NCBI RefSeq assembly: GCF_903866365.1 | Contig: NZ_CAIPNF010000036.1 | Span: 1-50,435, forward strand | Length of the DNA: 50,435 nt | Origin: an uncultured Thiocystis sp. | GTDB lineage: Bacteria > Pseudomonadota > Gammaproteobacteria > Chromatiales > Chromatiaceae | Reading direction: 5' to 3' | Part shown: positions 1,147 to 49,694 of the stretch, piece after piece | Position numbering within the stretch: position 1 is the stretch's first letter | Layout of the letters: each line of letters starts with the position of its first letter | Position numbers and translations under genes: made by a program | The notes under the pieces: model-generated | What the model was told of the DNA's origin: nothing | What the model saw: only the letters and a program-made list of their open reading frames with translations | Databases searched by the model: none

Positions 1147-2739
1147 TCAGCGACCGAAGTGCGCTTTGGCATCGTAGAGCGTCTCCACGGTAATGGTTAG
1201 GATCCCTCGTTCCTGGGCGAATCGCTCGGTGTTGCGACGCGCCTTCCCGCGCACGAAGAAGGGGATCTTTTTCAGTTCCTGCTCGGCTTCCGATGTCCAA
1301 GCCATGATGTTTTCGTCGGTCCCGACGGCCGTCTCCGCCGCTGCGGACCCGGTGTCCCGCGAGGGTTCCTGACTGGCCTGACCCGCCCTGGCGCCCGGCC
1401 CCAGATGTGATGGCGTCGCGCCATCGTGAAACTCGAAATCCTCCCGGAACATGGTGATCAGGTGCTCTTCAAGCCCCATCATCAAGGGATGGACCCAGGT
1501 ATCGAAGATGACGTTCGCACCCTCGAACCCCATCTGCGGCGCATAGCGGGCCGGGAAGTCCTGAATATGCACCGGCGCCGAAATGACCGCGCAGGGAATG
1601 CCGAGCCGCTTGGCGATATGGCGCTCCATCTGGGTGCCCAGCACCAGCTCGGGGTGCGCCTCGGCGACCTTTGCCTCGACCTCCAGATAATCGTCGGTAA
1701 TCAGCGGCTCCACGCCATAGCGCTTGGCCGCCTCACGCACCTCGCGGGCGAATTCGCGGGCATAGGTTCCCAGCCCCACGACCGTAAACCCGAGTTCCTC
1801 GGTCGCGATTCGCGCCGCGGCCACCGCGTGGGTCGCGTCGCCAAAGATAAACACGCGCTTGCCGGTCAGATAGGTCGAATCGACCGAGCGCGAGTACCAG
1901 GGCATTCTAGACCAGATCGGCTCCCGCGTGGCACTGACATCGATGTCGGCAACACGCCCGACCTCCGCGATGAAATCACGGGTCGCGCCAATCCCGATCG
2001 GCACCGTCTTGACCGTCCGTTGGCCGAACATGCGCTCCAACCAGAGACAGGCTTGATCGGCCAGTTCGGGATAGAGACAGACATTGAAGTCAGCCTCGGG
2101 AAGACGCAGCAGATCCTCCGGGGTCGCGCCGAGCGGGGCCACGACATTCACCTCGACGCCGAGCGAATCCAGCAGCCGGGTGACCTCCACGACATCGTCG
2201 CGACAGCGGAACCCTAGCGCCGACGGTCCGAGCAAATTCGCCAGCGGACGCGCGCCCGTCTTCCGCAGCTCGCGCTCGGCGCCCGGCGCGGGCACCCGAC
2301 TCTTGAGCAAGCCGCGAACCAATTGATAGAAGGTCTCGTTGGCACCCCAGTTTTCCTTGCGCGCATAGGCCGGCAATTCCAGCGACAGGACCGGCACCGG
2401 TAACCCCATCCCCTGTGCGAGCGCACCCGGCTGATCCTGGATCAGTTCCGCCGTGCAGGACTCGCCGATCAAGATCACGCGGGGCGCGAAGCGATCAAAG
2501 GCCGCCTGGATCGTGCTCTTCACCAACCCGGCGGTATCGCCGCCCAATTCGCGCGCCTGAAAGCTGGTGTAACTGACCGGTGGGCGCTGTCCGCGCCGCT
2601 CGATCATGGTGAAGAGCAGATCGGCGTAGGTGTCGCCCTGAGGCGCGTGCAGGACGAGGTGGACCCCTTCCATCGAGGCGGCGATGCGCATCGCGCCGAT
2701 ATGCGGTGGTCCTTCATAGCTCCAGAGCGTCAACTGCAT
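1147..2739 (-). CDS. bchB: Light-independent protochlorophyllide reductase subunit B, BchB
   Basis: BchB pairs with BchN to form the catalytic NB component of dark-operative protochlorophyllide oxidoreductase, which reduces ring D of protochlorophyllide with electrons from BchL. The product is 530 residues from the ATG at 2739 ([20 protein letters not shown]). A longer upstream frame overlaps bchN and lacks family similarity, so I reject it. Asp36 (HAPQGD) falls where the family uses an aspartate as the fourth ligand of the NB 4Fe-4S cluster. The C-terminal PCP_red-type segment ends [17 protein letters not shown], as expected. A Pro/Ala/Glu-rich linker (about residues 440-475) separates the two parts. 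The gene starts 4 bases after the bchN stop and ends 1 base before bchH, so it is a tightly packed operon member. Confidence 0.96.
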
Positions 2740-2743
2740 GAGA

Positions 2744-4622
<1,879 letters not shown>

Positions 4623-4632
4623 CCAAGCTTTA

Positions 4633-4650
4633 CGTAAACCTGACTTGACA
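4633..4650. promoter_or_regulatory. Candidate PpsR/CrtJ operator (CGT-N12-ACA)
   Basis: The PpsR/CrtJ family binds TGT-N12-ACA palindromes. This site reads CGT-N12-ACA with the preferred G before ACA, so it has one mismatch in the half-sites. It lies just upstream of the bchF -35 box and overlaps the proposed ppsR1 -35 box, where a repressor could act on both promoters. I infer it from pattern and position only; a second copy at the spacing typical of cooperative binding was not found. Confidence 0.35.
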
Positions 4651-4672
4651 ACTCCGCGCAAGCCATCACAAT
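4645..4672 (+). promoter_or_regulatory. Possible promoter for ppsR1
   Basis: A perfect TTGACA (4645-4650) is followed after 16 bp by CACAAT (4667-4672), which matches four of six -10 positions. It would give ppsR1 a leader of over 200 nt, so a promoter nearer the gene is also possible. Confidence 0.3.
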
Positions 4673-4914
4673 AGGCTATACGAAACTGATCACGGAGGTA
4701 ATGCTCTCTTGTCGACGGCGGCCTGTCTCCGTTCTGGTTGGGCAGGCGAAACCGAAGTGAACAACTCGATGACGCGATACGGCCGCTCTGACAACAAGAG
4801 TCCGTTTCCAAGTTAGTTGGGTTTTTTTTAGGATTAATCCGGCAAATCTGCCGCTGCTGTCCCTGAGCTTGGGTCCACAGGGCACGCCTAGAGGCACTGG
4901 AGGGTCTGGTCGTC

Positions 4915-6372
4915 GTGAGTCCGTTCAGAGCCCCAAAGGAATCGATCGGCGTCCTTGACGCCGACACGGCGGCGGCCTTGGTCGAAGGCACGGCCGACAT
5001 TGCCGTGATTGTCGATCATAAAGGCATTGTCAGCGATATTGCCTTTGGCAGCGACGACTTGTTGTCGGACATCAACGTGGACTGGGTTGGGCAGCCCTGG
5101 CTCTCCACCGTCTTGCCAGAAAGCCGTGCAAATCTTGAAGCGCTCCTCGAAGAATCCAATCATCAAAGCGTGACACGTTGGCGGCAGGTCAACCATCCGT
5201 CGTTGCGAGGAACCGATATCCCCGTTCAGTACCGAGCGCTACGCCTCGGGAAAAAAGGTTCCGTCGTGGCAGTGGGCAGGAATTTGCAAGGCATGGCGGC
5301 CCTTCAGCAGCAACTGGTCGACGCCCAGCAGGCGCTGGAACGCGACTATTGGCGCTTCCGTCAGGTCGAAACCCGTTACCGACTCCTGTTCCGGATGGTC
5401 TCGGAGGCTATCCTCATCATCGACGCACCCACGCAGCGCGTCGTTGAAGCGAATCCAGCCGCGGGGCAGCTCCTCGGCGAAACGCCCACCCGCGTGATCG
5501 GCCGGCCATTTCCCGAAGGATTCGATACCGAAAGCACGCAAGCCATCAATAGCCTGCTGGCGGGCGTTCGTGCCGCCGGTCGCGCCGACGATGTCAGGGC
5601 GCGCCTGATCGACAGCTTGCAGGAATTTCTGGTCTCGGCCTCTTTGCTGCGTCAGGAAAACGTGACTTTTCTGCTGGTGCGACTCTCGCCGCTGCTGGCC
5701 GACACGGCGTCAACCGCCATGCCCGAAGCCAAGGCCCGCTATCTGCGGGTGCTCGAAAACGCGCCCGATTGCGTGGTCATCACCGACGCGGACGGTCGGA
5801 TTCTGACCGCCAACAGCACCTTTCTGAGCCTGGCTGAAATCGCCACCGAGCAACAGGCCAGGGGCGAATCGCTCGACCGCTGGCTGGGTCGGCCAGGAGT
5901 TGACCTTAACGTGCTGATGGCCAACCTGCGCCAGCACTCGACCGTGCGACTCTTCGCGACCATGCTCCGCGGAGAGTATGGATCCACGACCGAGGTCGAG
6001 ATCTCCGCCGCCGCGGTCCGCAATGGCGAACGCCCCTACTTCGGCTTCTTCATCCGCGACGTGGGACGGCGCCTGAGCACCGAGCAGCCCCCAAGCCCCG
6101 AGCAGACCCGCTGGCTGGACCAGTTGACCGATCGGGTCGGACGGGTGCCGCTGAAAGAGCTGGTCCGCGAATCCACCGACACCATCGAGCGACTCTGTAT
6201 CGAAGCGGCGCTGAAATTGACCGGCGACAATCGCGCCTCGGCCGCCGAGCTGCTGGGCTTGAGTCGGCAAAGCCTCTACGTCAAAATCGACCGCTATGGC
6301 ATAGCGGCCGACCACACGACCGAGCTGCACGCGCCCGACAAAAAAATCGCGCACAAATCGCGTCCAGAGTGA
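4915..6372 (+). CDS. ppsR: Photosynthesis gene repressor PpsR/CrtJ (copy 1)
   Basis: PpsR/CrtJ is an oxygen- and redox-responsive repressor of bacteriochlorophyll, carotenoid and light-harvesting genes. The product is 485 residues from a GTG preceded by GGAGG. An N-terminal PAS-like region (about 15-120) leads to a glutamine-rich coiled coil (LQQQLVDAQQALERDYWRFR, about 130-150), two further PAS domains (about 155-270 and 275-390), and a Fis-type helix-turn-helix at the C-terminus (about 425-465, with AAELLGLSRQSLYVKIDRYG). Only two cysteines occur, Cys286 and Cys428. Cys428 (IERLCIEAAL) lies just before the HTH, like the redox-sensitive Cys of CrtJ/PpsR. Whether Cys286 matches the other known Cys was not settled. 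It is transcribed away from bchFNBH and upstream of bchG. A charged 20-residue tail extends past the HTH. Confidence 0.93.
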   Translation: MSPFRAPKESIGVLDADTAAALVEGTADIAVIVDHKGIVSDIAFGSDDLLSDINVDWVGQPWLSTVLPESRANLEALLEESNHQSVTRWRQVNHPSLRGTDIPVQYRALRLGKKGSVVAVGRNLQGMAALQQQLVDAQQALERDYWRFRQVETRYRLLFRMVSEAILIIDAPTQRVVEANPAAGQLLGETPTRVIGRPFPEGFDTESTQAINSLLAGVRAAGRADDVRARLIDSLQEFLVSASLLRQENVTFLLVRLSPLLADTASTAMPEAKARYLRVLENAPDCVVITDADGRILTANSTFLSLAEIATEQQARGESLDRWLGRPGVDLNVLMANLRQHSTVRLFATMLRGEYGSTTEVEISAAAVRNGERPYFGFFIRDVGRRLSTEQPPSPEQTRWLDQLTDRVGRVPLKELVRESTDTIERLCIEAALKLTGDNRASAAELLGLSRQSLYVKIDRYGIAADHTTELHAPDKKIAHKSRPE

Positions 6373-6554
6373 CATGCGCTACTGCGCATGTCACTCAGCC
6401 TCGTGGTGACTCACGGCGATCGGCGAGACGCGGTTTAACGGTTCAAAATAACCGATTGAAGCCGTGTCGGCTTAGACCCTGGTTGGATCGATTGCAACCG
6501 ATCCGATGGATAAACAACGCAGACCGCGCCGGGCGCGGTTTAACAGGCTCCCGC
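6373..6554 (+). other. ppsR1-bchG spacer with small inverted repeats
   Basis: This 182-bp gap has no supported gene. It holds CGGTT/AACCG (6439-6443 and 6450-6454) and a stronger GGATCG/CGATCC pair around an 8-base loop (6485-6490 and 6499-6504) just upstream of bchG. Neither is followed by a T run, so they look more like operator or mRNA structure than terminators. No clear sigma70 promoter was seen, so bchG may be read from ppsR1. Confidence 0.3.
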
Positions 6555-7457
6555 ATGAATCGACCGACGCCCGCAGTAACCGCCAGCTACCCGGCTCCAT
6601 CGGCGATCTTCGAGGTGCTCCATCCCATCACCTGGTTTCCGCCCATGTGGGCCTTCAGTTGCGGCGTGGTCTCTTCCGGCCAGCCCATCCTGGCGCAGTG
6701 GCTGGTCGTCATCGCCGGCATCGTCCTCGCGGGGCCATTGATGTGCGCTACCAGTCAGGTCGTCAACGACTGGTACGACCGCGATGTCGACGCCATCAAC
6801 GAACCGCATCGTCCGATCCCCTCGGGGCGCATCCCCGGACGCTGGGGGCTGTATCTCTCGCTGATCTGGACCACGGTCTCGCTGCTGCTCGCCTACGCCC
6901 TTGGCCCCTGGGTGTTCGGCATGGCCCTGATCGGCATGGCCATCGCCTGGGGCTACAGCGCCCCGCCCTTCCGCTTCAAGGGTAACGGCTGGTGGGGCAA
7001 CCTGGCGGCTGGCATCTCCTACGAGGGACTGGCCTGGATCACCGGCGCGGCGGTCATGATCGGCGGCGCGCTGCCTGACGGGGAGATCCTCGCGCTCGCC
7101 CTGCTCTACAGCCTCGGCGCCCACGGCATCATGACCCTCAACGATTTCAAGGCGATCGAGGGCGACACCCAGATGAATGTCCGCTCGCTGCCGGTTCAGC
7201 TCGGCGTCGACGGCGCCGCCCGCGTGGCCTGTCTGGTGATGGGCCTGCCGCAGGCCGTGGTCATTGCCCTGCTCTACTCCTGGGACAAACCGGCCCACGC
7301 CATCGCCGTCGGCGTGGTGCTGCTGATCCAGATCGGACTCATGATCCGCTTTCTCGGCAGCCCCCGCGAACGGGCGACCTGGTTCAGCGGACTGGGCGTC
7401 AGCGTCTATGTCACCGGCATGATGATCAGCGCCTTTGCCGTGCGTTCGCTGGGCTAG
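6555..7457 (+). CDS. bchG: Bacteriochlorophyll synthase BchG (prenyltransferase)
   Basis: BchG esterifies bacteriochlorophyllide a with geranylgeranyl (or phytyl) diphosphate, the step that gives the pigment its membrane tail. From the ATG at 6555 (MNRPTPAVTASY) the protein is 300 residues, the usual family length. The frame stays open upstream to 6369, but that extra part is basic, unlike the family, and lies in the spacer. The first Asp-rich motif is NDWYDRDVD (71-79). A second lies in TLNDFKAIEGD. About eight or nine hydrophobic helices surround them, as in UbiA-type prenyltransferases. HPITWFPPMWAF near the N-terminus is characteristic of chlorophyll synthases. bchP follows after 189 bp. 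The ribosome binding site is weak (CAGG), so the exact start is not certain. Confidence 0.94.
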   Translation: MNRPTPAVTASYPAPSAIFEVLHPITWFPPMWAFSCGVVSSGQPILAQWLVVIAGIVLAGPLMCATSQVVNDWYDRDVDAINEPHRPIPSGRIPGRWGLYLSLIWTTVSLLLAYALGPWVFGMALIGMAIAWGYSAPPFRFKGNGWWGNLAAGISYEGLAWITGAAVMIGGALPDGEILALALLYSLGAHGIMTLNDFKAIEGDTQMNVRSLPVQLGVDGAARVACLVMGLPQAVVIALLYSWDKPAHAIAVGVVLLIQIGLMIRFLGSPRERATWFSGLGVSVYVTGMMISAFAVRSLG

Positions 7458-7480
7458 ACCATCATCCTGAATGACGATTT

Positions 7481-7586
7481 GAACCGCAAAGAACGCGAAG
7501 GCATCTCGGCAAGACCAACCGCATGGGCGAACCAATCGAGCTATCCGCCATGTTCACTCTTTGCGTCCTTTGCGCCTTTGCGGTTC
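7481..7586. repeat. Interspersed inverted repeat (AACCGCAAAG / CTTTGCGGTT family)
   Basis: The bchG-bchP spacer carries a left arm GAACCGCAAAGAACGCGAAG (from 7481). A right arm, made of CTTTGCGTCCTTTGCGC followed by CTTTGCGGTTC, ends at 7586. The arms are imperfect inverted copies about 57 bp apart. A second, solo copy of the right arm sits downstream of radC (21373-21392). This suggests a genome-wide intergenic repeat rather than a gene-specific regulator. The fold could also separate bchG and bchP expression. Confidence 0.7.
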
Positions 7587-7646
7587 CCAATATTCACTGT
7601 CGGTTTTCGCATCAACGCGCACATCTCTTCACCAACGGGATCTTCC

Positions 7647-8888
7647 ATGGCAAACCTCGAAACCTTTGATGCCGTCGTGATTGGCGGCGGGCCGTCCGGC
7701 GCGACCGCGGCGACCGACCTGGCCAAACTCGGCCGTTCCGTGCTCCTGCTCGATCGCGCCGGACGCATCAAGCCCTGCGGCGGAGCCATCCCGCCACAGG
7801 CCATGCGGGATTTCGACATCCCCGAATCCATGCTGGCGAATCAGGTGAATTCGGCCCGCATGGTCTCGCCCACCGACCGCACTGTCGACATGCCCATCCA
7901 CGGCGGCTATGTCGGCATGGTGGATCGCGAACACTTCGACGAATGGCTCCGGGAGCGCGCTGCCGCGGCCGGGGCCGTGCGCCGCGTCGGCACCTTCGAG
8001 CGCATCGAGCGCGACAGCGACGGCACCGCGCTGGTCTGTTATCGCCCCGGCCAGGGACGCAGCGACAGCCCCGCCGAACAGGTGCGCGCCCGTGCCGTGG
8101 TTGGCGCAGACGGGGCGCATTCGGCGGTCGCCAAGCAATGCATTCCCGGCTCGGAGGGCATGAAATTCGTCTCCGCCTACCACGAAATCGTTCGCACCCC
8201 GCCCAACGGCGGCGCGGCCGACTTCGACGGCACGCGCTGCGATGTCTACTATCAGGGCGACATCTCGCCGGACTTCTACGGCTGGGTCTTCCCGCACGGC
8301 GACACCACCAGCGTGGGCGTCGGCACCGCGGTCGAGGGCTTCTCGCTGCGCTCGGCCTGCACCGAACTGCGCCGTCGCGCAGGACTTGCCGAGGCCGAGA
8401 CACTCCGTCGCGAAGGCGCGCCGATTCCGCTCGAACCGCTGCGCCGATGGGACAATGGACGCGACATCGTGCTGGCCGGCGACGCCTCGGGCGTGGTCGC
8501 CCCCGCCTCCGGCGAAGGCATTTATTACGCGCTGGTCGGCGGGCGCCTGGCCGCCGAAGCGGTCGCCGAGTTCCTGACCACCGGCAAGGCCAGCGCGCTC
8601 AAGAACGCCCGCAAACGCTTCATGAAGGCGCACGGCAAGGTGTTCTGGGTGTTGGGCATCCTGCAGCGTTTCTGGTACGCCAGCGACAAGCGGCGCGAGC
8701 GTTTCGTGAGCCTCTGCGCGGACCCGGATATCCAGTACCTGACCTGGGAGGCGTACATGAACAAGCGCCTGGTCAAGGCCCGGCCTGGCGCGCATCTGCG
8801 CATCTTCTTCAAGGACATGGCGCACCTGCTCGGCATCGTCTCGCCGATCTCCAGCCAGCCGTCCAAGAACGCCGCGCGCCATGGCTGA
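7647..8888 (+). CDS. bchP: Geranylgeranyl reductase BchP
   Basis: BchP is an FAD-dependent reductase that saturates three double bonds of the geranylgeranyl tail to phytyl on bacteriochlorophyll. From the ATG at 7647 (MANLETFDAVV) it is 413 residues with a plausible ribosome binding site (CGGGA). The dinucleotide-binding motif VVIGGGPSGATAATDLAK occupies about residues 10-27. GGAIPPQAM follows near the substrate-binding region. A second FAD contact, VLAGDASGVVAPASGEGIYYA, appears about two-thirds along, as usual in this family. The frame is open further upstream, but that part is encoded by the intergenic repeat and looks artificial. It forms an operon with bchG and the overlapping small membrane gene at 8881. 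Confidence 0.94.
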   Translation: MANLETFDAVVIGGGPSGATAATDLAKLGRSVLLLDRAGRIKPCGGAIPPQAMRDFDIPESMLANQVNSARMVSPTDRTVDMPIHGGYVGMVDREHFDEWLRERAAAAGAVRRVGTFERIERDSDGTALVCYRPGQGRSDSPAEQVRARAVVGADGAHSAVAKQCIPGSEGMKFVSAYHEIVRTPPNGGAADFDGTRCDVYYQGDISPDFYGWVFPHGDTTSVGVGTAVEGFSLRSACTELRRRAGLAEAETLRREGAPIPLEPLRRWDNGRDIVLAGDASGVVAPASGEGIYYALVGGRLAAEAVAEFLTTGKASALKNARKRFMKAHGKVFWVLGILQRFWYASDKRRERFVSLCADPDIQYLTWEAYMNKRLVKARPGAHLRIFFKDMAHLLGIVSPISSQPSKNAARHG

Positions 8889-9153
8889 GTTCTTCGCCAG
8901 CGGCCGGGTGATCGATCTCATCCTGGTCCTGCTGCTGATCGAGGGTGCCGCGCTCGCCATCCTTCACCACCGAACCGGCCGCGGCATCGCGCCCGCCGAT
9001 CTGGCGGGTTTCCTGCTCTCCGGATTCTTTCTGATGCTCGCGGTGCGCGCCGCGCTGGTCGGTGCCTGGTGGGGCTGGGTCAGCCTCTGTCTCACCGCCG
9101 CGCTCCTGACCCATCTAGCCGATCTTCGACATCGCTGGAAGCGGCCAGATTAG
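8881..9153 (+). CDS. Small membrane protein downstream of bchP, function unknown
   Basis: The 90-residue product (MAEFFASGRVIDLILVLLLI...) has about three hydrophobic segments: residues 10-27, 40-62 and 64-82. The ends are short and charged (HLADLRHRWKRPD at the C-terminus). No enzymatic motif is visible. Its ATG overlaps the last 8 bases of bchP, so the two are probably translationally coupled. This context points to an accessory role in pigment synthesis or assembly in the membrane, by association only. The frame is clean and the hydrophobic pattern is not that of an antisense shadow. A hairpin follows within 10 bases of the stop. Confidence 0.75.
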   Translation: MAEFFASGRVIDLILVLLLIEGAALAILHHRTGRGIAPADLAGFLLSGFFLMLAVRAALVGAWWGWVSLCLTAALLTHLADLRHRWKRPD

Positions 9154-9160
9154 GCGATTA

Positions 9161-9192
9161 CCAAGAAACGTCATCCCATTGACGTGTCTTGG
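9161..9192. terminator. Hairpin between convergent bch and bphP genes
   Basis: CCAAGAAACGTCA and TGACGTGTCTTGG form a 13-bp stem with one mismatch around a 6-base loop, centred in the 63-bp gap between the small membrane gene and bphP. There is no long T run on either strand. It is well placed as a bidirectional terminator for the convergent transcripts, perhaps with Rho or as an mRNA 3' stabiliser. Confidence 0.6.
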
Positions 9193-9216
9193 GCGACCTC
9201 GCGTTTAACTGGAAAA

Positions 9217-11418
9217 TCACCTTGCTTTCATCTGCCCCGCATACCACACGAGATGTTCCAGCAACTCGGTCGCCCGCGAGACCGAGGTCTGGACCCCATC
9301 GACCATCGCCGGCACACGGGCCGGATCGACGCCATCCGTGACTTCCAGCGCCGCAAGTTGGGCGTTGTTCACGAGGGCGGAGAGCAGGTTGCGATACACG
9401 GGATCGGCGGTCGAGTTCAAGGGCGTGCGCAGGATCTTCTGCTGCTCCAGGATGCCCGCCTGAAACCGTTGCCGCGCCGCTTCCGCCGCCTTGCGGGCGG
9501 TCAGATCGGTGAGCAGAAACACGAATCCCAACACCCGGCCGGGCGAGGAGAACACCGGATCGGCCCGCAGCAAAAACCGCTGCTCGCCCTGATCGCGGGT
9601 CGCCAGACAGACCTCGCCGCGCCAGGGACGATGGTGATGCAGCAGATCGCTGACCCGCTGCTCCCGGTCGAGCGGCTCCGTCAGGCGCTTTAACAGATCG
9701 TCGAGACAATCGGGCGGCGCCCGCTCCGACCCCAGAAGCCGCTCCAGCGACTCGGTCGCCAGCAGAATCACCCCATCGGGCGCGGCGATCAGAATCGGCT
9801 GATCCGCGACCCGGATCTGCGAACGGACCTGGGCAAGCTGCGCCTGGGCGATCAGCACCCGCACCGACCGAAACTGCTGGATGACATCCGCGACCGACTC
9901 GCCGATCAGACGCGCCGCGGTTCGATTGGCCGAGGTCCAGGGGCTGGAGGTGCCCTCGACCACCTGATGCCATTGGCTGAAGGAACGCCGGGGGGACAAT
10001 TCGGCCGGATCGTCCCCGATGGCAAGCGGCTTGAACGGATTTCCCGCCCAGGTCACGGTGCGGATGCGCTCGGGACGGAACCAGAGCAGATACTCGCCGG
10101 GGCATGTCGAGATCGGGATGGCCAGCACCCCGCTCGCCACCGACTTCACGGCGGCCAGCCGCGGCGCCTCCCGCCCCAGCGCGGCCGTCGCCATCACCGG
10201 CGCGCTCGGCTGTCCATCCAGCCAGGCCGCGATCTCGCGCAGTTCCAGCGTCCCCGGCACCTCGCCGGTGGTGAGTACCCGGCCATCGTAGAAGAGCGCG
10301 GCGCCGGCGGCCTCCACCGGTTGCAGCAGCGACTGCGGATGATCGAAGAGGGCCGAGGTCCAATCGCCCTCGCGCGCAATCCCCTCGATCATGCGCTGTT
10401 CCAGACGCCGCACCGAGAGTTCGGCCTGCGCCTGGACGAAACTCTCCAAGGCCGCGATCCGGGTCGCAACCGCCTCCGCGAGCAACTCGCACGCGGCGCG
10501 GATCTCGTATTGCACGGTCCGGGACGTCCGGTGATGACAGGCCACCATCCCCCATAGCCGCCCCCCGACCAGCAGCGAAGCGACCAGGGTCGCCTTCACA
10601 CCCATGTTGCGAAGGTATTGAAGATGGATCGGCGACAGACTGCGCAGCGCGCACAGCGACAGATCCAGATCCTCGCCCGTCAGGGGCGAGAGCCTCGGCA
10701 GGAGCGGAATCGGGGCGTCGTCTACATCAACCAGGAGACGGATGCGATTGCGCTCGTAGAGACGGCGCGCGATCTGGGGAATATCCGAGTCCGGATAGCG
10801 GTTCCCGAGATACGGCTCCTGCTCGGGCTCGCAGCATTCGGCAAAGACCTCGCCATGACCCTCATCGTCGAACCGATAGACCATGACCCGATCGTAACCG
10901 GCGATCTCCTTGAAGATCCGCGCGGTCTCGTCGCAGAGCGCGGGCAGCGTGGGGGCGTCCATGATGGTCTGCAACGCCGCCTGCACCGGTCCGAACAACG
11001 CCACCGCCGGCCCGGCGGGCTCGAACTCGACCACCAGTCCGCCGGTCGGCGGGCGATGCAGCAAAATGTCGAACGCCTGTCGCGAGCGCCCGACAACACC
11101 GCGCAACACCAAGGGAATGACGTTGAGCGGATCGTTGAGGTGCGGGCGGATGCGCTGTTCCAAACCGCCGCCCAGATCGTCGAGGGACCAGCCGAGCAGA
11201 CTCTCCCCGACACCGAACGCCTCGCCCGCATTGGCGCTCGTCTGCACGATGTCCAGCCTGGGCTCGCGCACCACCAGCAACACGCCCCGCGGCTGGATGG
11301 AGGCGGCATGCTGAATCTGTTCGCGCTCGCAAGTCGACAGGCTGGCCTGCCCGAAGGCGGGAGAAGACGCGACACCGGGGTTCAAGTGGACTGGGCTCCC
11401 ATCATGCGGCATTGCCAT
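9217..11418 (-). CDS. bphP: Bacteriophytochrome, BphP1-like, with non-kinase output domain
   Basis: A biliverdin-binding red/far-red photoreceptor of 733 residues. Domains run PAS (about 25-135), GAF (150-320), PHY (330-515), PAS/PAC (530-650), then a helical C-terminus. Cys30 (LSTCEREQI) is the expected biliverdin attachment site. The chromophore pocket shows DSDIP (210-214), His265 in CALRSLSPIHLQYL, and His295 in MVACHH. The usual IQPHG motif is IQPRG (41-45). There is no histidine-kinase H-box and no HATPase motifs. The C-terminus (LLSALVNNAQLAALEVTDGV) closely resembles R. palustris BphP1, which acts by binding PpsR2 rather than by phosphorylation. The start overlaps the 3' end of ppsR2 by 17 bp, so the photoreceptor and its likely partner are coupled. 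An alternative ATG lies two codons downstream. I compared from memory and ran no alignment. Confidence 0.93.
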   Translation of the reverse strand: MAMPHDGSPVHLNPGVASSPAFGQASLSTCEREQIQHAASIQPRGVLLVVREPRLDIVQTSANAGEAFGVGESLLGWSLDDLGGGLEQRIRPHLNDPLNVIPLVLRGVVGRSRQAFDILLHRPPTGGLVVEFEPAGPAVALFGPVQAALQTIMDAPTLPALCDETARIFKEIAGYDRVMVYRFDDEGHGEVFAECCEPEQEPYLGNRYPDSDIPQIARRLYERNRIRLLVDVDDAPIPLLPRLSPLTGEDLDLSLCALRSLSPIHLQYLRNMGVKATLVASLLVGGRLWGMVACHHRTSRTVQYEIRAACELLAEAVATRIAALESFVQAQAELSVRRLEQRMIEGIAREGDWTSALFDHPQSLLQPVEAAGAALFYDGRVLTTGEVPGTLELREIAAWLDGQPSAPVMATAALGREAPRLAAVKSVASGVLAIPISTCPGEYLLWFRPERIRTVTWAGNPFKPLAIGDDPAELSPRRSFSQWHQVVEGTSSPWTSANRTAARLIGESVADVIQQFRSVRVLIAQAQLAQVRSQIRVADQPILIAAPDGVILLATESLERLLGSERAPPDCLDDLLKRLTEPLDREQRVSDLLHHHRPWRGEVCLATRDQGEQRFLLRADPVFSSPGRVLGFVFLLTDLTARKAAEAARQRFQAGILEQQKILRTPLNSTADPVYRNLLSALVNNAQLAALEVTDGVDPARVPAMVDGVQTSVSRATELLEHLVWYAGQMKAR

Positions 11419-12784
11419 GCGCGGCGCGCGCGGATTCGGTATCCAACCCGTAACGGTTCAGCTTGACATAGAGGCTTTGACGGCTCAATCCAAGCAGTTC
11501 GGCGGTGGCGGTCCGGTTGCCTCGGGTCGCTTCCAGCGCCTCCTCGATATAGTAACGCTCCACCACGCCCACGGTCTCCTCCACCAGCGTGCGCAGCGAA
11601 TGCTTGCCGATCTGCCCGGTCAACGCGCCCAGACGATCGCTCAGGCGATCGGCGTGGCGCGGCGGCGACAGCCGGCGGCCCACCGCGCGGATCAGGACGA
11701 CGACGAACTCCGGATCGGTTTCCCGATTCCCCGCCGCGGAAATCTCGACATCCGTCTCCGTGCCCAGTTCGCCATGCAGGACGGTCGCGAACATCCGCAC
11801 CGCGCCCAGGCGCTGCACATTCGCCATCAGCACCGTCAGATCGGCGCCCGGATGGCCGAGCCAGCGCCCGAGCGTCTCATGGATCACCGAACTCTCGGTC
11901 GGCATCTGCAGCAGATCGAGACAGCCTTGATTCGCGCGCTGGATCAAGCCCAGCCGATCGGTGATCGCGAAGCCATCCGGCAGGCGCTCCAGCAACTCCT
12001 CCAGCGGCAGCGTCCGCGCCAGTGTGACGCGCGCCTCCGCTACGCCCGCGACCGCCTCGGTCGGAGACAACTGCAAGAGATACACGGCACCGGACTCCGA
12101 CGACAAAAGCGAGGCACGCACCATCCAGGCCACACGCGGCGTCCCGAGCTGAAGCAGAACCCCTGGCGCCTGCCCCTGCTCCGCCACCCGATTCAACATC
12201 GCTTGCAAGGCATCCCGCTCGGCGGGCAGCAGCGCCGCCAGAAACTCCTGCCCGGCGGCGGTCACTGGCGGCGTCAGGCCCAAGGCCGCGGCGGCGACCG
12301 GATTCGCCTCGACGATCCCGAGCGTACTGGCGCGCAGCAGCAACACGGCATCGGTCGAGGAGCGAAACAGCAGCCGATAGCGCGTCTCGACCTCGCGCAG
12401 CTTCCAGTAATCGCGCTCCATCGTCTGTTGCGCCTCGACGAGTCGCGACTGAAGCTCGGTCACGGCCTGCAGGCTGCGGCCGATCGCCACCAGACCGGCC
12501 TGCCCGCCGAGACGCACTGCGGTATATTCGATCGGCAACGCGCGCCCGCTCGGAAAGCGCTGCGTCACCTGGCGAAAGGCCGACACCCCGCTGACCGCGG
12601 CATCCTCGACCAATTGGCGCAGGCTCTCGCCGCCACCCGGCTCGACGGTCTCGGACCAGTGACGCCCCACCCAGGCATCCAATCCCTCGTCGGGGAAGCT
12701 CGTCGACAGCGCGGCGCGACGAATCACCCCCGCGCGATCAAGGAACAGCGTCACGTCAGGTTGCGGCAGGTTTCGGATCGTCAT
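11402..12784 (-). CDS. ppsR2: PpsR2-type photosynthesis regulator, likely partner of BphP
   Basis: A 460-residue paralogue of the PpsR encoded at 4915-6372. It has the same plan: N-terminal PAS-like region (10-105), coiled coil (LQSRLVEAQQTMERDYWKLR, 111-130), two PAS domains (about 135-250 and 255-370), and Fis-type HTH (AELLGLSRQSLYVKLNRYGL). The HTH recognition segment is almost identical to copy 1, so both should bind similar TGT-N12-ACA sites. The residue before the HTH that is Cys in copy 1 is Tyr here (VERYYIEEAL). Only one Cys (Cys288) remains, so a two-Cys redox switch is not possible. In R. palustris the same pairing, PpsR2 beside BphP1, gives light-controlled derepression of photosynthesis genes. 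The 17-bp overlap with bphP supports joint function. Confidence 0.9.
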   Translation of the reverse strand: MTIRNLPQPDVTLFLDRAGVIRRAALSTSFPDEGLDAWVGRHWSETVEPGGGESLRQLVEDAAVSGVSAFRQVTQRFPSGRALPIEYTAVRLGGQAGLVAIGRSLQAVTELQSRLVEAQQTMERDYWKLREVETRYRLLFRSSTDAVLLLRASTLGIVEANPVAAAALGLTPPVTAAGQEFLAALLPAERDALQAMLNRVAEQGQAPGVLLQLGTPRVAWMVRASLLSSESGAVYLLQLSPTEAVAGVAEARVTLARTLPLEELLERLPDGFAITDRLGLIQRANQGCLDLLQMPTESSVIHETLGRWLGHPGADLTVLMANVQRLGAVRMFATVLHGELGTETDVEISAAGNRETDPEFVVVLIRAVGRRLSPPRHADRLSDRLGALTGQIGKHSLRTLVEETVGVVERYYIEEALEATRGNRTATAELLGLSRQSLYVKLNRYGLDTESARAAHGNAA

Positions 12785-12943
12785 GGTCTCTCAAGGCTCG
12801 GCGTCAATGGATTGGATGGTGCGACGCACCAAATACCCTGACCGCTTGGAGTCGAACCCTGCCCAAATCGTTCACTCCGCAACGAATTTTATCGACTATC
12901 AATTCCGGTCGGGACATAGCCCTTGAGGACCGCCTGCGATAAA

Positions 12944-12966
12944 CTGTCAATTCCAGGGTTCGACAG
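12944..12966. promoter_or_regulatory. Inverted repeat upstream of ppsR2
   Basis: CTGTC (12944-12948) and GACAG (12962-12966) form an inverted repeat of the TGTC...GACA type, but with 13 bp between arms rather than the 10 of a PpsR box. It lies between ppsR2 and the tRNA-Arg gene. A second perfect palindrome, GGTGCGACGCACC (12818-12830), is nearer the gene start. Either may be regulatory; neither fits a known consensus well. Confidence 0.25.
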
Positions 12967-12988
12967 CGACCCAGGATCTTGTCACAAC

Positions 12989-13065
12989 GCCCTCGTAGCT
13001 CAGTTGGATAGAGCGATCGCCTCCTAAGCGGTAGGTCACAGGTTCAATTCCTGTCGAGGGCACCA
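12989..13065 (+). tRNA. tRNA-Arg (anticodon CCU)
   Basis: The sequence folds as a complete 77-nt tRNA with encoded CCA. The acceptor arms are GCCCTCG and CGAGGGC, the D-arm is GCTC...GAGC, the anticodon arm is ATCGC-CTCCTAA-GCGGT, and the T-arm is ACAGG-TTCAATT-CCTGT. The anticodon in the loop is CCT, which reads AGG. It lies immediately before the hsd island. tRNA-Arg genes are frequent integration sites, but no integrase and no second copy of the tRNA 3' end were found at the far side of the hsd operon. Confidence 0.95.
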
Positions 13066-13092
13066 AATACCCATTCCAAGACGCTTCCAAGG

Positions 13093-13114
13093 CCGGCCTA
13101 AGTGCCGGTTTTTT
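13093..13114 (+). terminator. Rho-independent terminator after tRNA-Arg
   Basis: CCGGC (13093-13097), a 6-base loop, and GCCGG (13104-13108) are followed directly by six T (13109-13114). This is a standard intrinsic terminator 28 bases after the tRNA. Confidence 0.8.
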
Positions 13115-13234
13115 CTTGCTTGTTTGTTTCATGGCGTCCAACGTTGTCGATTGACAGCCAAGACCAACTAAGCACAACATCCCGGCCGATACCGTACACT
13201 CAATTGGACGGCAACCATGAAGACAGGATAATGA

Positions 13235-15232
13235 ATGGCGCTCTCGCTCAACAAGCCCAAGCTCGACAATCTCGCGTCCGACATCTGGAAATCCGCCGAG
13301 CGGCTGCGCGGCAAGTTCAAATCCTACGAGTATCAGGGCGTCATCCTGCCCATCATCGTCATCCGCCGCCTGGAGTGCGTGCTCATTGACTGGCGGGCGC
13401 AGAAGTCCGCCGAGGTGTTGAAGAACCGGCCCCAGCTCACCGGGAAGGAACTCGCCAGGCTGGTCAAGGAACTGGAATTGAATCCCAGACAGTGTCCCTT
13501 TTCAAACATCACCGACTGGACGCTCCGCTCGGTCCACGAAGAAGACCATGCCCTGCTGGAGGAAAATTTCCGCGCCTACATCAACGGCTTCTCGAAGAAC
13601 GTCGATGACATCATCGAGCACTTCAACTACCACGCCACCATCGGCCAGATGGTGAAGCTCAACCGGCTGGCCCCGATCCTCAACCAATACAAGGAGCTTG
13701 CGCTCGGCCCCGACCAGCTCTCCGGCCTGGAGATGGGCTACATCTACGAGGAACTGCTGCGGCGCTTCTCGGAACAAAGCGGTGACGAGGCTGGGGAGCA
13801 CTTCACCCCGCGCGAAGTCATCCGTCTGATGGTCGAGTTGCTGGAGATCCCCATCCCGGACCGGCACCTCTCCATCTACGATCCCGCTAGCGGTACGGGT
13901 GGCATGTTGTCCGTGGCGAAGGAGCACCTGCTGGAGCGCGCCGAGACGCCGGAGGAAAGGGCGCGGGTCGAGCAATTCGTCACCGTTCACGGACAGGAAC
14001 TGTCACCCACCAACTACGCCGTCTGCCAGGCCGACCTCCTCATCAAGAACGACCGGCAGGCGACCGGTCAGCTCGGTAACTCGCTCATCCCGCACGATCC
14101 GCACGGCAGGGAGCCCGGCGACCAGTGGCCGGAACCCAAATGGCGTTTCCACCGGATGCTGAGCAATCCGCCCTTCGGCGTCACCTGGGGCGGCAAGGAC
14201 GGCTACGAGCGGGAGGCCCGCAAGCTGGAGCGGACCCGCTACCAGGCCGGGATGCCGCGCGTGAACGACGGCGCCCTGCTCTTTCTGCAAACCATGCTGG
14301 CCAAGATGGCGCCGGTCGAGCAGGGCGGCAGCCGCATCGCCATCATCTTCAATGGCTCGCCGCTCTCCAATGGCGACTGCGGCTCGGGCGAGAGCGAGAT
14401 CCGCCGCTGGATTCTGGAGCACGACTGGCTCGACGCCATCGTCATGCTGCCCGATCAGCTCTTCTACAACACCGGCATCTTCACCTACATCTGGCTGCTG
14501 CGAAACGACAAGCCCGCCAGCCACCAGGGCCGCGTCATGCTCATCGACGCCCGCCAGCAGTTCGAGAAGGAGCCGAAATCCTTTGGCAACAAGCGCCACC
14601 GCATCAGCGATGCCCACCGCGCCTGGATCGAGGCGCGCTACACCCAGGGCTGGGCCGAGGGCGACGCCGACGAACAGGTCCGGATCTTCCGGTGCCAGGA
14701 CTTTGCCTACCACAAGGTCAGCGTCGTTTTCTGGCAGACCGATGAGCACGACCAGCCCGCCATCGTCACCGAGCCTTACGAGAAGGCGTTCACCGCCGCA
14801 AATCTGAAGAAGGAGCAGGACTTCCATGCGAGCGATTTGAGCTTTCGCGTGCGGGTGAAGGCGAAGGGCGAGGAAAAGACCGTCGCCTTCACCCTCAAAC
14901 CCAGTGACAACGCCGCCAGGATCTTCAAGGCGGCCTTGGCCGACGCCGACGAGACGCTCGCCGTCGAATGGACGCACCGGCATTACGTGCGGGACGACGA
15001 ATACATCCCGCACGGCGAGGATATCGCCGCCTTCCTGGAGCGCGAAATCGCCAAGCCGATCATCCGCTGGGAGGAGACGAAGAGAGACGGCAAACCCGTC
15101 CTCGGCTACGAAATCCTGCCGAACAAATACTTCTACCGCTACCAGCCGCCCACGCCCGCGAAGGACTTGCTGGCGGAGTTCTGGCGGCTGGAGAAGGAGG
15201 CCGAGAAACTATTGGAGGGACTTGCCCGATGA
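13235..15232 (+). CDS. hsdM: Type I restriction-modification system methyltransferase subunit HsdM
   Basis: This is the N6-adenine methylation subunit of a type I R-M complex; with HsdS it methylates the recognition site. The 665-residue protein has an HsdM N-terminal helical domain (about 10-145) and a methyltransferase domain (about 165-480). SAM-binding motif I is YDPASGTGGML (215-225) and catalytic motif IV is NPPF (311-314). The C-terminal 180 residues (FYRYQPPTPAKDLLAEF) form the long tail common in one hsdM subgroup. The start is supported by AGGA six bases upstream; TTGACA at 13151 may belong to its promoter. Its stop overlaps the next gene (ATGA), opening a coupled operon of M, DUF1016, S and R genes. 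The preceding 169 bp hold only the tRNA terminator and this promoter. Confidence 0.95.
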   Translation: MALSLNKPKLDNLASDIWKSAERLRGKFKSYEYQGVILPIIVIRRLECVLIDWRAQKSAEVLKNRPQLTGKELARLVKELELNPRQCPFSNITDWTLRSVHEEDHALLEENFRAYINGFSKNVDDIIEHFNYHATIGQMVKLNRLAPILNQYKELALGPDQLSGLEMGYIYEELLRRFSEQSGDEAGEHFTPREVIRLMVELLEIPIPDRHLSIYDPASGTGGMLSVAKEHLLERAETPEERARVEQFVTVHGQELSPTNYAVCQADLLIKNDRQATGQLGNSLIPHDPHGREPGDQWPEPKWRFHRMLSNPPFGVTWGGKDGYEREARKLERTRYQAGMPRVNDGALLFLQTMLAKMAPVEQGGSRIAIIFNGSPLSNGDCGSGESEIRRWILEHDWLDAIVMLPDQLFYNTGIFTYIWLLRNDKPASHQGRVMLIDARQQFEKEPKSFGNKRHRISDAHRAWIEARYTQGWAEGDADEQVRIFRCQDFAYHKVSVVFWQTDEHDQPAIVTEPYEKAFTAANLKKEQDFHASDLSFRVRVKAKGEEKTVAFTLKPSDNAARIFKAALADADETLAVEWTHRHYVRDDEYIPHGEDIAAFLEREIAKPIIRWEETKRDGKPVLGYEILPNKYFYRYQPPTPAKDLLAEFWRLEKEAEKLLEGLAR

Positions 15233-16410
15233 AACAGCCCGCCACCACCGCCCTGGCCATCAGCGCCGATTACCGGCGGTTTGTCGAGGAACTGAAGGCC
15301 CGGGTGCAATCCGCCCGCCTATCAGCAGCTCGGGCCATTACCCACGAGGCCATCCTGCTTTACTGGGACATTGGCCGGGGGATTGTGGAAAAACAGCAAA
15401 CCCATAGTTGGGGCGATTCCGTGGTGGAAATGGTCGCCGCCGATCTGCGGCGGGCCTTCCCTGGGATGAGGGGCTTCTCGGCCAATAATTTGTGGCTGAT
15501 GCGCCAGTTCTATTCGGAGTATTCGGCCGCTGGATTTCTTGAACAGCTTGTTCAAGAAATTGCGGAAGATAACCGCCATGACCCTCGGCAGACCAAGCCC
15601 GTCACGCAGCCGGACGATCGCTCAAGCAGACTTCCACTGTCGGCTAGAGTTCTTGAACAGCTTGTTCAAGAAATTCTGCCCGCCGTCCCTTGGGGTCATC
15701 ACGTCGAAATCGTCAAGAAGGTCAAGACCCCCGCAGCCCGCCTCTGGTATCTCCGGGCTACATCCCGTTTCGGTTGGTCGCGCAACGTCCTGCTCAACCA
15801 GATCAAGGCCGGGGCCTACGAGCGCGCCGTCACCGAGAAGAAGACCCACAACTTTCCGCTGGCCCTGCCGGAGTACCTCGCCGAGCAGGCGGACGAGATG
15901 CTCAAGAGTTCCTATAACCTGGAGTTTCTCGGCATCCGTCGCGAGGTGAAAGAGCGGGAGCTGGAGGACCGCCTGGTCTCCCGCCTGCAAGCCTTCCTGC
16001 TTGAACTCGGCTACGGCTTCTGCTTCGTCGGGCGCCAATACCGGCTGGCGCTGGGCGAAAAGGAATATTTCATCGACCTGCTCTTCTACCATCGTTTCAT
16101 CAAGGCCCTGATTGCCTTCGAGCTGAAGGTCGGCCCCTTCGAGCCGGAACACGCGGGGAAAATGGATTTCTATCTCAACCTGCTCAACGACCGGGAACGC
16201 GGCCCCGACGATCAGCCGTCCATCGGGATCATCCTCTGCGCGGAAAAGGACGACGTGGAAGTCGAATATGCCCTACGCAGCAAAGCCAATCCCATCGGCG
16301 TCGCCTCCTATGAGTTGCAGTCGAAACTGCCGGGGGAATTGAAAGGGAAGCTGCCGACCGCCAAACAGCTTGCGGATGTGGTGCGGATTGAGATGGAGGG
16401 TGAGGTATGA
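15229..16410 (+). CDS. DUF1016 (YhcG-type) PD-(D/E)XK nuclease-fold protein
   Basis: The 393-residue protein has a DUF1016 N-terminal domain (about 10-190; LYWDIGRGI, SANNLWLMRQFYSEY, KTPAARLWYLRAT) and a C-terminal PD-(D/E)XK nuclease domain. In the latter, FIDLLFYHRFIKALIAFELK gives the D...ExK catalytic pattern. These proteins often occur inside or beside type I R-M operons; their exact role is not established. Here the gene overlaps hsdM and hsdS by 4 bases each, so it is fully embedded. Unusually, it carries an in-frame insertion of 38 codons in which the peptide LEQLVQEI appears twice, each copy encoded over the same 23-bp palindrome (15536-15558 and 15650-15672). The family normally has one such segment before PWGHH. 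The frame is intact, so the protein may still work. Confidence 0.88.
   Translation: MKQPATTALAISADYRRFVEELKARVQSARLSAARAITHEAILLYWDIGRGIVEKQQTHSWGDSVVEMVAADLRRAFPGMRGFSANNLWLMRQFYSEYSAAGFLEQLVQEIAEDNRHDPRQTKPVTQPDDRSSRLPLSARVLEQLVQEILPAVPWGHHVEIVKKVKTPAARLWYLRATSRFGWSRNVLLNQIKAGAYERAVTEKKTHNFPLALPEYLAEQADEMLKSSYNLEFLGIRREVKERELEDRLVSRLQAFLLELGYGFCFVGRQYRLALGEKEYFIDLLFYHRFIKALIAFELKVGPFEPEHAGKMDFYLNLLNDRERGPDDQPSIGIILCAEKDDVEVEYALRSKANPIGVASYELQSKLPGELKGKLPTAKQLADVVRIEMEGEV
15536..15672. repeat. Duplicated 23-bp palindrome inside the DUF1016 gene
   Basis: Two identical copies (15536-15558 and 15650-15672) have arms TTCTTGAACA and TGTTCAAGAA around GCT. They are 114 bp apart, an exact multiple of three, so the frame is kept. 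The DNA between them encodes a polar stretch (AEDNRHDPRQTKPVTQPDDR) unlike the flanking domain. It reads like insertion of a small palindromic element with duplication of the target copy. Confidence 0.85.
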
Positions 16411-17699
16411 ACACCGCTCACGACAGTTTTCTGAACGATTTACCGCAAGGATGGAAATTTGACCGGTTCAAAGATATTGTCTCGCTTCGTAACGAAAAGA
16501 CGGATGAAGCGAGTGCGGAAGAGGATTACCTCGAACTTGAAGACATGGATTCCGGCTCTGGCCGAATCCTGAGCCGCCGGAACACGCTTGAGGTTGGCAG
16601 CGCCGTCACGCGGTTCAAGACGGGTGACGTGCTTTTTGGAAAGCTGCGCCCCTACTTGGAAAAATACTGGGTCGCCGAGTTTGACGGCAAATGCACGGGC
16701 GAGATTTTGGCGTTCGAGCCGCAGCGGATTGCAAGTCGCTTCCTGTTTTACTGCCTTGGGTCGCGGTGGTTCATTGAGCGATGTAACGCGCTCGCCTACG
16801 GCGCCAAGATGCCTCGTGTCAGTTGGCCGACTCAACTGGCACAGTTCAACTTCCCGCTCCCGCCGCTCTCAGAGCAACAGCGCATCGCGGCTTATCTGGA
16901 TGCGAGTTGCGCGGCGATTGATGCGGCGGTGACAGCCAAACGCCGCCAAATCGAAACCCTCGGCGCGGTGAGGGAAAGCATCATCGAGACGGCGGTTACG
17001 AGGGGCCTTGATAGCAATTCCAAATTCCGGGTGATCAATCATGACTGGTTAGGGTCACTTCCGGAGCATTGGGCAGCGGTTCGCATCAAGCGGGTAATTT
17101 CACATCTTGACTACGGCATTTCAGTCAGCAGTCAACCAGAAGGCAAATATCCAGTGCTCAAGATGGGCAATATCCAATCTGGTGAGATCGTTTTCTCGAA
17201 GATGGAGTTTGTGGATGAAGTTGCCGAGGAACTCTTGCTGGAAAAGAACGACCTGCTCTACAACCGCACCAACAGCCCTGATCAGGTGGGTAAAGCCGCT
17301 CTGTTCCTTGGCTGTAAAGGGGACGAGGTGACTTTCGCCTCCTATTTGGTCAGGCTGCGGGTCAATCACCGTATTATTCCCGAGTTCCTCAACTATGCGG
17401 TGAATTGTGCTGGCTTCCTTGCCTTTGCACGTCGCTTGGCCATCCCGTCGGTACAGCAGTCGAATCTGAACTCAACCCGTTACGCGAGGATGTTCATCCC
17501 GTTGCCGCCTATCTCTGAACAACGCTCCATCTGTCAGCACCTTCGGGAAAAAGTCGGCGAGATGAAGTGTGTGGTGAACACCATCGAATCCCAAATCGCC
17601 ACCCTCACCGCCTACCGTAAATCCCTGATCCACGAATGCGTCACCGGCCAGCGGCGGATCACGGAGGCGGACATCAACCGGGTCAAGGCGCATGGCTAA
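16407..17699 (+). CDS. hsdS: Type I restriction-modification system specificity subunit HsdS
   Basis: HsdS recognises the bipartite DNA target and tethers HsdM and HsdR. The 430-residue protein has two target-recognition domains (about 10-165 and 210-385), each ending in a conserved PLPP(L/I)SEQ(Q/R) segment that leads into a coiled-coil spacer: LPPLSEQQRIAAYLDASCAAIDA at 151-173, and the second near 370. The repeat ends with LTAYRKSLIHECVTG. The DNA of both recognition domains, especially 17030-17480, is visibly more AT-rich than its neighbours, as is common for horizontally exchanged specificity domains. The start overlaps the DUF1016 stop (ATGA), and the end overlaps hsdR by 8 bases. The target site cannot be predicted from the sequence alone. 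Confidence 0.94.
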   Translation: MNTAHDSFLNDLPQGWKFDRFKDIVSLRNEKTDEASAEEDYLELEDMDSGSGRILSRRNTLEVGSAVTRFKTGDVLFGKLRPYLEKYWVAEFDGKCTGEILAFEPQRIASRFLFYCLGSRWFIERCNALAYGAKMPRVSWPTQLAQFNFPLPPLSEQQRIAAYLDASCAAIDAAVTAKRRQIETLGAVRESIIETAVTRGLDSNSKFRVINHDWLGSLPEHWAAVRIKRVISHLDYGISVSSQPEGKYPVLKMGNIQSGEIVFSKMEFVDEVAEELLLEKNDLLYNRTNSPDQVGKAALFLGCKGDEVTFASYLVRLRVNHRIIPEFLNYAVNCAGFLAFARRLAIPSVQQSNLNSTRYARMFIPLPPISEQRSICQHLREKVGEMKCVVNTIESQIATLTAYRKSLIHECVTGQRRITEADINRVKAHG

Positions 17700-49400: not shown

Positions 49401-49571
49401 GGGGGGGGGATCCTGGACGGCGCGAGCGATCGGGACAGGCAGGGCCAGCACGAGCATCAGGAATGCAAGGAGCGGGCGACGCCAACCGCAGCCTAAATGC
49501 GCCATCCTCTCGCCCGACCGACGCAGCGACGCGGTCCGGTCCTCATACAGCCACTTCACGAACACGTTCAT
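43413..49571 (-). CDS. Very large hybrid histidine kinase with periplasmic ABC-type binding domain
   Basis: A sensor of about 2052 residues starting at [15 protein letters not shown] stands 5 bases before this ATG, which decides against a frame 19 codons longer. In order: signal/TM region (about 30-50), ABC-sub-bind-like periplasmic domain (55-360), TM (370-394), PAS (405-535), PAS (540-665), GAF (680-840), PAS (855-970), PAS (995-1120), GAF (1125-1285), HisKA with His1308 ([16 protein letters not shown]), HATPase (about 1415-1545), two receivers (about 1560-1690 and 1730-1855; [13 protein letters not shown] in the second), and an HPt domain (about 1930-2020; [16 protein letters not shown]). 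The periplasmic fold suggests a small-molecule signal, perhaps captured directly, plus redox or light/small-molecule input through PAS/GAF. No partner response regulator lies nearby. Confidence 0.88.
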
Positions 49572-49694
49572 CGCCACCTCAGGCAGCGGCATCCCATCCG
49601 GGTTTCGATGGATCCTTGCGGATCCCATCGGTTTCTCGCCAGCGCAACGCCCTGCTCAAAGAGTAGACGCTTTCCAAGGCTCCGCCCGGCGCGC

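Follow-up and report, generated by a model that had tools for sequence, protein, structure and literature searches.

We analysed a 50,435-nucleotide stretch of DNA (hereafter, the window), a complete contig (G000:C36) of the 5.5-Mb Thiocystis-like genome of a purple sulfur bacterium of the Chromatiaceae, in which a bacteriophytochrome gene (bphP) overlaps the gene of a PpsR-type repressor (ppsR2) beside bacteriochlorophyll genes and a second repressor gene (ppsR1). Judged from its sequence, this locus is likely to encode a functional BphP1-PpsR2 pair that switches in far-red light, an orthologue of the Rhodopseudomonas and Bradyrhizobium systems, alongside a separate PpsR1 that would serve redox; chance is no reasonable explanation for the ppsR2-bphP locus. 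The natural variants around the locus are more interesting than the locus itself, which is a well-conserved addition to a known system. The three regulators are:

9217..11418, reverse strand: bphP, 733 amino acids; type-3 bacteriophytochrome of predicted PAS-GAF-PHY-PAS9-HOS architecture, orthologue of RpBphP1 (Pfam, PDB match, motifs, trees, AlphaFold helices)
11402..12784, reverse strand: ppsR2, 460 amino acids; putative light-arm repressor with N-PAS, Q-linker, PAS1, PAS2 and a Fis-type helix-turn-helix (HTH) domain (TIGR02040, 445 bits; HTH_8, 54 bits)
4915..6372, forward strand: ppsR1; presumed redox-arm repressor (TIGR02040, 522 bits), with Cys428 near the HTH domain and Cys286 in PAS2

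Pfam searches of the window BphP returned PAS_2, GAF, PHY (175 bits) and PAS, with no kinase domain among the matches, and its closest solved structure was R. palustris BphP1 (4gw9, 751 bits over residues 11–645); after the BphP1 entries and the miRFP proteins, which are derivatives of RpBphP1, the next-best structure was 6bap at 324 bits. The first-pass annotation had described a full photosensory core and a non-kinase C-terminus like that of R. palustris BphP1, and these matches bear it out. All five chromophore motifs are present (Cys30, PDSDIP at 209–214, SPIH at 262–265, ACHH at 293–296 and PRRSF at 476–480 in the tongue), as they are in 70 of 81 related sequences (60 once 10 short additional loci in genomes already counted are excluded); three full-length sequences fail and eight are partial or split. 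In the AlphaFold model (mean predicted local distance difference test score, pLDDT, 77.5; predicted template modelling score, pTM, 0.71; poor at residues 1–33 and in the tongue at 458–485), helices at 640–663, 671–694 and 702–729 follow the PAS fold, as expected for the HOS output domain described for RpBphP1 (PMC6899989). As modelled, the output is PAS9-HOS-like and kinase-free.

A tree of 84 phytochromes separated 63 type-3 BphPs, including that of the window (sister to the T. minor BphP), from 21 others of the window's class (Shimodaira-Hasegawa-like approximate likelihood ratio test, SH-aLRT, 99), so that the phylogenetic check proposed earlier revealed no grouping with kinase-type phytochromes. 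The window genome holds four more phytochromes, at 29–38% identity to the window BphP; the three placed in the tree all fell among the 21 others. Purifying selection acts on bphP, with ratios of nonsynonymous to synonymous substitution (dN/dS) of 0.11–0.23 by domain across three genomes of the window's genus. A heme oxygenase is encoded elsewhere in the window genome (G000:C291, 52 bits against a cut-off of 23).

Both PpsR proteins exceed the TIGR02040 cut-off of 275 bits. In a tree of 137 of 184 PpsR sequences (close copies dropped), the BphP-adjacent PpsR of the window lay inside a PpsR2 clade of 46 BphP-adjacent and four orphan sequences (support 100 without the very long sequence L222), and the PpsR beside bchG was among 86 PpsR1-type sequences set apart from the rest by one branch (support 79, tree with L222). 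This placement confirms the adjacent protein as PpsR2 and the one beside bchG as PpsR1. The residue next to the HTH domain was counted after removal of 31 of 215 sequences that were identical over the compared stretch, with four sequences that the automatic neighbour test had missed (L077, L088, L221 and L222) placed by hand in the BphP-adjacent group. It was Cys in 97, Ser in 15, Ala in one and Tyr in one of the 114 PpsR1-type sequences; among the 64 BphP-adjacent sequences it was Tyr in 51, Cys in five, His in three and Phe in one, and was missing in four; all six orphan PpsR2 had Tyr. The window PpsR1 carries Cys428 in ERLCIEAAL and the window PpsR2 a Tyr in ERYYIEEAL. PpsR1 sequences of the window's family or genus had Cys in 27 of 27 cases; Ser occupied the position in all eight Rhodopseudomonas and all three Bradyrhizobium-type PpsR1 sequences.

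Cys428 may be equivalent to Cys424 of R. sphaeroides; the matched solved PpsR structures stop short of the HTH domain. According to PMC6899989, R. palustris PpsR1 has a Cys that PpsR2 of most strains lacks; the Rhodopseudomonas PpsR1 sequences inspected have cysteines elsewhere than at the HTH position. PpsR2 of the window's group is itself constrained, with dN/dS of at most 0.18 across three genomes of the genus and 0.00 in the HTH region (58 codons, three pairs). The earlier proposal of dual control, redox through PpsR1 and light through BphP-PpsR2, is consistent on sequence grounds with Cys428 in the former and Tyr in the latter.

By analogy with work on R. palustris, BphP would rest in the dark in its far-red-absorbing form (Pfr), and light of about 760 nm would convert it to the red-absorbing form (Pr) and free the HOS helices. 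The freed helices would bind PpsR2 at N-Q-PAS1, in the manner of AppA, whose four-helix bundle contacts the Q-linker of PpsR in R. sphaeroides; docking would disrupt the PpsR2 oligomer and lift repression of the bch, crt and puf genes, and PpsR1, which carries Cys428, would answer redox independently. We regard N-Q-PAS1 as the likeliest HOS contact because of the constraint on PpsR2 proteins without an HTH domain (below), the reported binding of BphP1 by QPAS1, an optogenetic fragment made of the Q-linker and PAS1 (PMC13058837), and the reported binding of the PpsR Q-linker by the AppA four-helix bundle, which prevents tetramer formation (PMC3949515).

A scan of 84,980 species genomes yielded 57 BphP1-type loci, 54 of them with ppsR directly upstream on the same strand; L065 and L075, which have no upstream ppsR, begin at a contig end. 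A second PpsR was found in 24 of the 25 BphP1-type genomes tested (25 of the 57 loci), and in a sample of 146 genomes from the window's family PpsR occurred in 56, with two in 17 of these. Alpha- and Betaproteobacteria also show the order ppsR1-bchG-bchP-ppsR2-bphP, as do some Chromatiaceae (L042; L047, with no ppsR1 listed), and ppsR2-bphP is inverted in the Thiocystis, Thiocapsa and Imhoffiella group. The ppsR2-bphP arrangement is not special to the window genome.

In a more careful BphP tree of 44 sequences, which left out 19 of the 63 (near-copies, three degenerate BphPs and L222), a single branch split the 10 Chromatiaceae sequences from all others (bootstrap 99, SH-aLRT 92). Because they hold a branch of their own, we read the window pair as long established in its family, and recent import from Alphaproteobacteria was rejected. 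In a quick rooted tree the deepest Chromatiaceae forks are poorly resolved, and any older transfer may have run in either direction. Three loci in gammaproteobacterial metagenome-assembled genomes (L045, L052 and L066) grouped with alpha- and betaproteobacterial sequences in both BphP trees, so transfer has probably taken place elsewhere. The pair is no alphaproteobacterial speciality: as a regulator of purple bacteria it is old and spans at least two classes.

Other records from the same surveys depart from the usual pairing. Orphan PpsR2 proteins with an HTH domain follow bchP at L124 (G041), L126 (G154), L127 (G173) and L131 (G131), and a search of these four genomes found no type-3 BphP, with no BphP above 39% identity to that of the window. 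Three bphP1-type genes are split by a frameshift or stop (L134 in G184, a single-contig Thiocapsa-group genome, L047 and L055), which may reflect errors or real loss. BphP1-PpsR2 pairs of alphaproteobacterial grouping also turned up under two actinobacterial names (L057, Frankia sp. RB7; L049, Solirubrobacterales 70-9), and these assemblies are probably mislabelled or contaminated.

We then considered PpsR2 in the Burkholderiales, the order of the genome holding L060. Of 300 genomes of this order, 38 carried PpsR and seven (G197, G198, G199, G433, G656, G666 and G686) had a second PpsR next to BphP1; two listed matches in each of G473, G591 and G622 are one PpsR in two pieces. Four of the seven have lost the HTH domain (L060, L063, L070 and L223), the gene ending at or near the end of PAS2, and in the other three (L220, L221 and L222) it is degenerate, scoring 14.8–16.4 bits with HTH_8 against a cut-off of 22 and 54 for the window protein (L063 was outside the Pfam HTH_8 run). 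The HTH core, read by eye, is kept in the remaining 57 of 64 BphP-adjacent sequences. At L060, L063 and L070 the ppsR2 stop overlaps a GTG able to start bphP, and the BphPs paired with Burkholderiales PpsR2 kept every chromophore motif checked. Pairwise dN/dS (Nei-Gojobori) among PpsR2 of L060, L063 and L070 was 0.02–0.07 in N-PAS, 0.05–0.10 in Q plus PAS1 and 0.22–0.50 in PAS2. Strong constraint on N-Q-PAS1, with PAS2 relaxed, in HTH-less PpsR2 therefore suggests that BphP1 docks on N-Q-PAS1.

In its predicted structure, L063 PpsR2 (365 residues; mean pLDDT 83) has the domains N-Q-PAS1-PAS2, with its last strand at 356–362, in an arrangement that is unsure because pTM is 0.41; the best match of this model was 4hh2, the solved R. 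sphaeroides PpsR without the HTH domain. The HTH domain may have been lost once or more than once in this order. Six of the seven Burkholderiales sequences grouped together in the PpsR2 tree (support 90), with L222 apart, and the careful BphP tree needs two changes for the loss of the HTH domain.

The opposite end of the pair is altered in seven genomes of three Chromatiaceae genera, whose type-3 BphPs are without the DIP motif and the tongue sequence: G033, G151 and G123; G118, G148 and G168; and G055, Imhoffiella purpurea. The loci concerned are L041/L251 (G055), L132/L249, L248, L250, L141/L244, L245 and L246. Six of the seven are also without the cysteine and keep the GAF histidines; the Imhoffiella BphP keeps a Cys, and its histidines and most of its tongue are gone. 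We infer from these sequences that the degenerate BphPs are blind. Their representatives L041, L132 and L141 form one group with long branches in the 84-sequence tree (support 99), and among the seven genomes PpsR2 is still present only in G055 and G148.

BphP of G033, G151 and G123 gave dN/dS of 0.08–0.17 in PAS-GAF, PHY and output alike, compared with 0.11–0.23 in the intact genes of the Thiocystis group; a pseudogene reading is thus unlikely for these three. The single G118/G148 pair gave 0.17–0.40 at dS 1.4–1.5, where the estimate is weak, and for the Imhoffiella BphP there was no close relative to compare. The G168 BphP has one TAG counted inside the match and none in the open reading frame (ORF) used for the motif check. 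We also asked whether absence of heme oxygenase marks genomes that no longer sense light, in a search of 25 genomes that did not include G118, G168, G151 or G123, and the outcome was mixed: the gene is absent from G055 and G148, with degenerate BphPs, and also from G117 and G187, with intact motifs, and it is present in the degenerate G033.

We tentatively propose that the core of the system is BphP1 HOS docking on PpsR N-Q-PAS1, rather than light sensing combined with DNA binding, and that evolution has dropped either end. The HTH-less PpsR2 of the Burkholderiales would be a light-gated antirepressor acting via PpsR1, a natural counterpart of QPAS1, and the motif-less phytochromes in Marichromatium-like and Thiorhodococcus-like (names guessed) and Imhoffiella genomes would be kept for a light-independent role, some without any PpsR2. 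It seems improbable that BphP binds PpsR2 mainly via the HTH domain, in mixed four-helix bundles with HOS. That picture follows the model of the R. palustris complex based on small-angle X-ray scattering (SAXS), in which HOS contacts the HTH domain and PAS2 of PpsR2, and HOS-deleted RpBphP1 is reported not to bind (PMC6899989); nevertheless, BphP1 with intact motifs stays coupled to an HTH-free PpsR2 in four genomes, and QPAS1 is described as sufficient in the optogenetic tool (PMC13058837). Somewhat less unlikely is that BphP acts on both PpsR proteins, or via PpsR2-PpsR1 hetero-oligomers, so that light and redox meet in one mixed complex. The HTH-less PpsR2 is not expected to bind DNA by itself and would need PpsR1 or another protein, single-PpsR genomes retain, under selection, BphPs that have no chromophore motifs, and L045 pairs an intact BphP1 with one PpsR; the intact HTH domain of the window-group PpsR2, with its dN/dS of 0.00, argues instead for DNA binding of its own. 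It is very improbable that Thiocystis is in the course of losing the pair as a relic, in the way that Imhoffiella and other sister genera are: three Chromatiaceae genera do have BphPs without key chromophore motifs, and three sampled genomes of the window's own genus (G001, G002 and G006) have a single PpsR, but the window BphP has every chromophore motif checked, and the low dN/dS given above holds in every BphP domain and in PpsR2.

Besides the SAXS-based contact, several observations weigh against a far-red switch that docks on N-Q-PAS1. Locus L045 (559–2733) has a BphP1 with intact motifs and no ppsR in the 558 bp upstream, in a genome with a single PpsR; possible reasons are a BphP1 that acts on PpsR1 and an assembly that lacks the PpsR2. 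PpsR2 of L220 and L221 is constrained in all regions, with dN/dS of 0.05 in PAS2 and 0.03 in the HTH remnant. Putative operators gave little: the strict TGT-N12-ACA motif was not enriched in the window (two found, 4.3 expected), the two sites lying inside bphP and inside a large kinase ORF, and a relaxed YGT-N12-ACR scan gave one site upstream of ppsR2 and three in the bchN-ppsR1 gap, none convincing. This stands beside a window PpsR2 that does have an HTH_8 domain. Finally, function cannot be assumed from family alone, because sister genera have lost the light-sensing motifs or PpsR2.

Compared with RpBphP1-RpPpsR2/PpsR1 of R. palustris, the window system shares the domain order, chromophore motifs, HOS-like tail, ppsR2-bphP coupling, ppsR1-bchG-bchP neighbourhood and second PpsR. 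It differs in several respects. The window BphP and an R. palustris protein (L082) are about 60% identical across the photosensory core and 42% identical across the output; ppsR2-bphP is convergent to bchP, whereas in R. palustris it runs in the same direction; the bchG-bchP spacer of about 1.3 kb in R. palustris is missing; and PpsR1 has Cys at the HTH position, unlike the eight Rhodopseudomonas sequences with Ser. Photosynthetic Bradyrhizobium has the same three regulators (BrBphP-PpsR2/PpsR1), with a PpsR2 without the HTH cysteine (L053, L054 and L061). Likeness extends to AppA-PpsR of Rhodobacter sphaeroides, with a photoreceptor antirepressor acting on PpsR and a PpsR of N-Q-PAS1-PAS2 fold. 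AppA differs in fold from a phytochrome and acts on a single PpsR. The degenerate BphPs described here are type-3 BphP1 relatives with PAS9-HOS, in contrast to the R. palustris bacteriophytochromes with lost chromophore, said to have been described by Vuillet in 2007 and Fixen in 2014, which are reportedly kinase-type and were kept after loss of light sensing. AppA is described as responsive to blue light and oxygen (PMC3949515), and an activator role is reported for PpsR1 of Bradyrhizobium (PMC3899966, PMC10569730).

A light/redox split between two PpsR proteins is not new with the window locus, because it has been published for R. palustris (PMC6899989) and for Bradyrhizobium (PMC3899966, PMC10569730). 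Among the papers listed from the open-licence PubMed Central literature, viewed by titles and abstract openings, we recognised no account of the pair in Chromatiaceae, of an HTH-less PpsR2 or of a chromophore-less type-3 BphP, which is weak as evidence of absence. BphP1-PpsR2 serves as a near-infrared optogenetic pair, and its contact site is described in two conflicting ways, as HOS-HTH (PMC6899989) and as Q-PAS1 (PMC13058837); a separate gammaproteobacterial branch, together with natural HTH-less PpsR2 and motif-less BphP1, offers a direct test of it.

From 1147 to 12784, the gene order is bchB and bchN (reverse), ppsR1-bchG-bchP (forward), then ppsR2-bphP (reverse), convergent to bchP. Family matches agree with the first-pass annotation, which had placed the pair beside bchG-bchP, with the second PpsR (4915–6372) on the far side, in a gammaproteobacterial host, here one of the Chromatiaceae. 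The 17-bp overlap of bphP and ppsR2 that it gave matches the ORF coordinates with the ATG at 11418; the overlap is 11 nt if a second in-frame ATG at 11412 is used. The remaining features are:

1147..2955, reverse strand: bchB (TIGR01278, 620 bits; family match from residue 73)
2744..4615, reverse strand: bchN (NF002768, 619 bits; family match from residue 211)
6369..7457, forward strand: bchG, bacteriochlorophyll synthase (PRK07566, 408 bits; TIGR01476, 320 bits); the ORF overlaps ppsR1 by 4 nt, and the true start may lie downstream, because the family match begins at residue 72
7479..8888, forward strand: bchP, geranylgeranyl reductase (TIGR02023, 508 bits); the true start is probably downstream, because the family match begins at residue 64
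12785..12988, reverse strand: region upstream of ppsR2-bphP, most of it conserved in Thiocystis minor (pairwise alignment), with no strict TGT-N12-ACA
12989..13065, forward strand: tRNA-Arg (CCT; ARAGORN), bordering the photosynthesis block

The bchN ORF extends in frame about 210 codons upstream (3982–4615, reverse), and the true start is probably near 3985. No NCBIfam model matched this upstream part, residues 53–180 of which resemble a separate ORF that precedes bchN in other phototrophs. The tRNA-Arg beside ppsR2 is flanked in the window (12989–20613) by a type I restriction system with a DUF1016/YhcG (PDC-S02) gene at 14968–16410; in T. minor (L036, 5728–6705) the same tRNA-Arg is flanked by a phage-type integrase, and it is probably an island insertion site. 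Farther along, a 2071-amino-acid ORF at 43413–49628 (reverse) encodes a very large sensor kinase that contains several PAS domains and matches hybrid histidine kinases.

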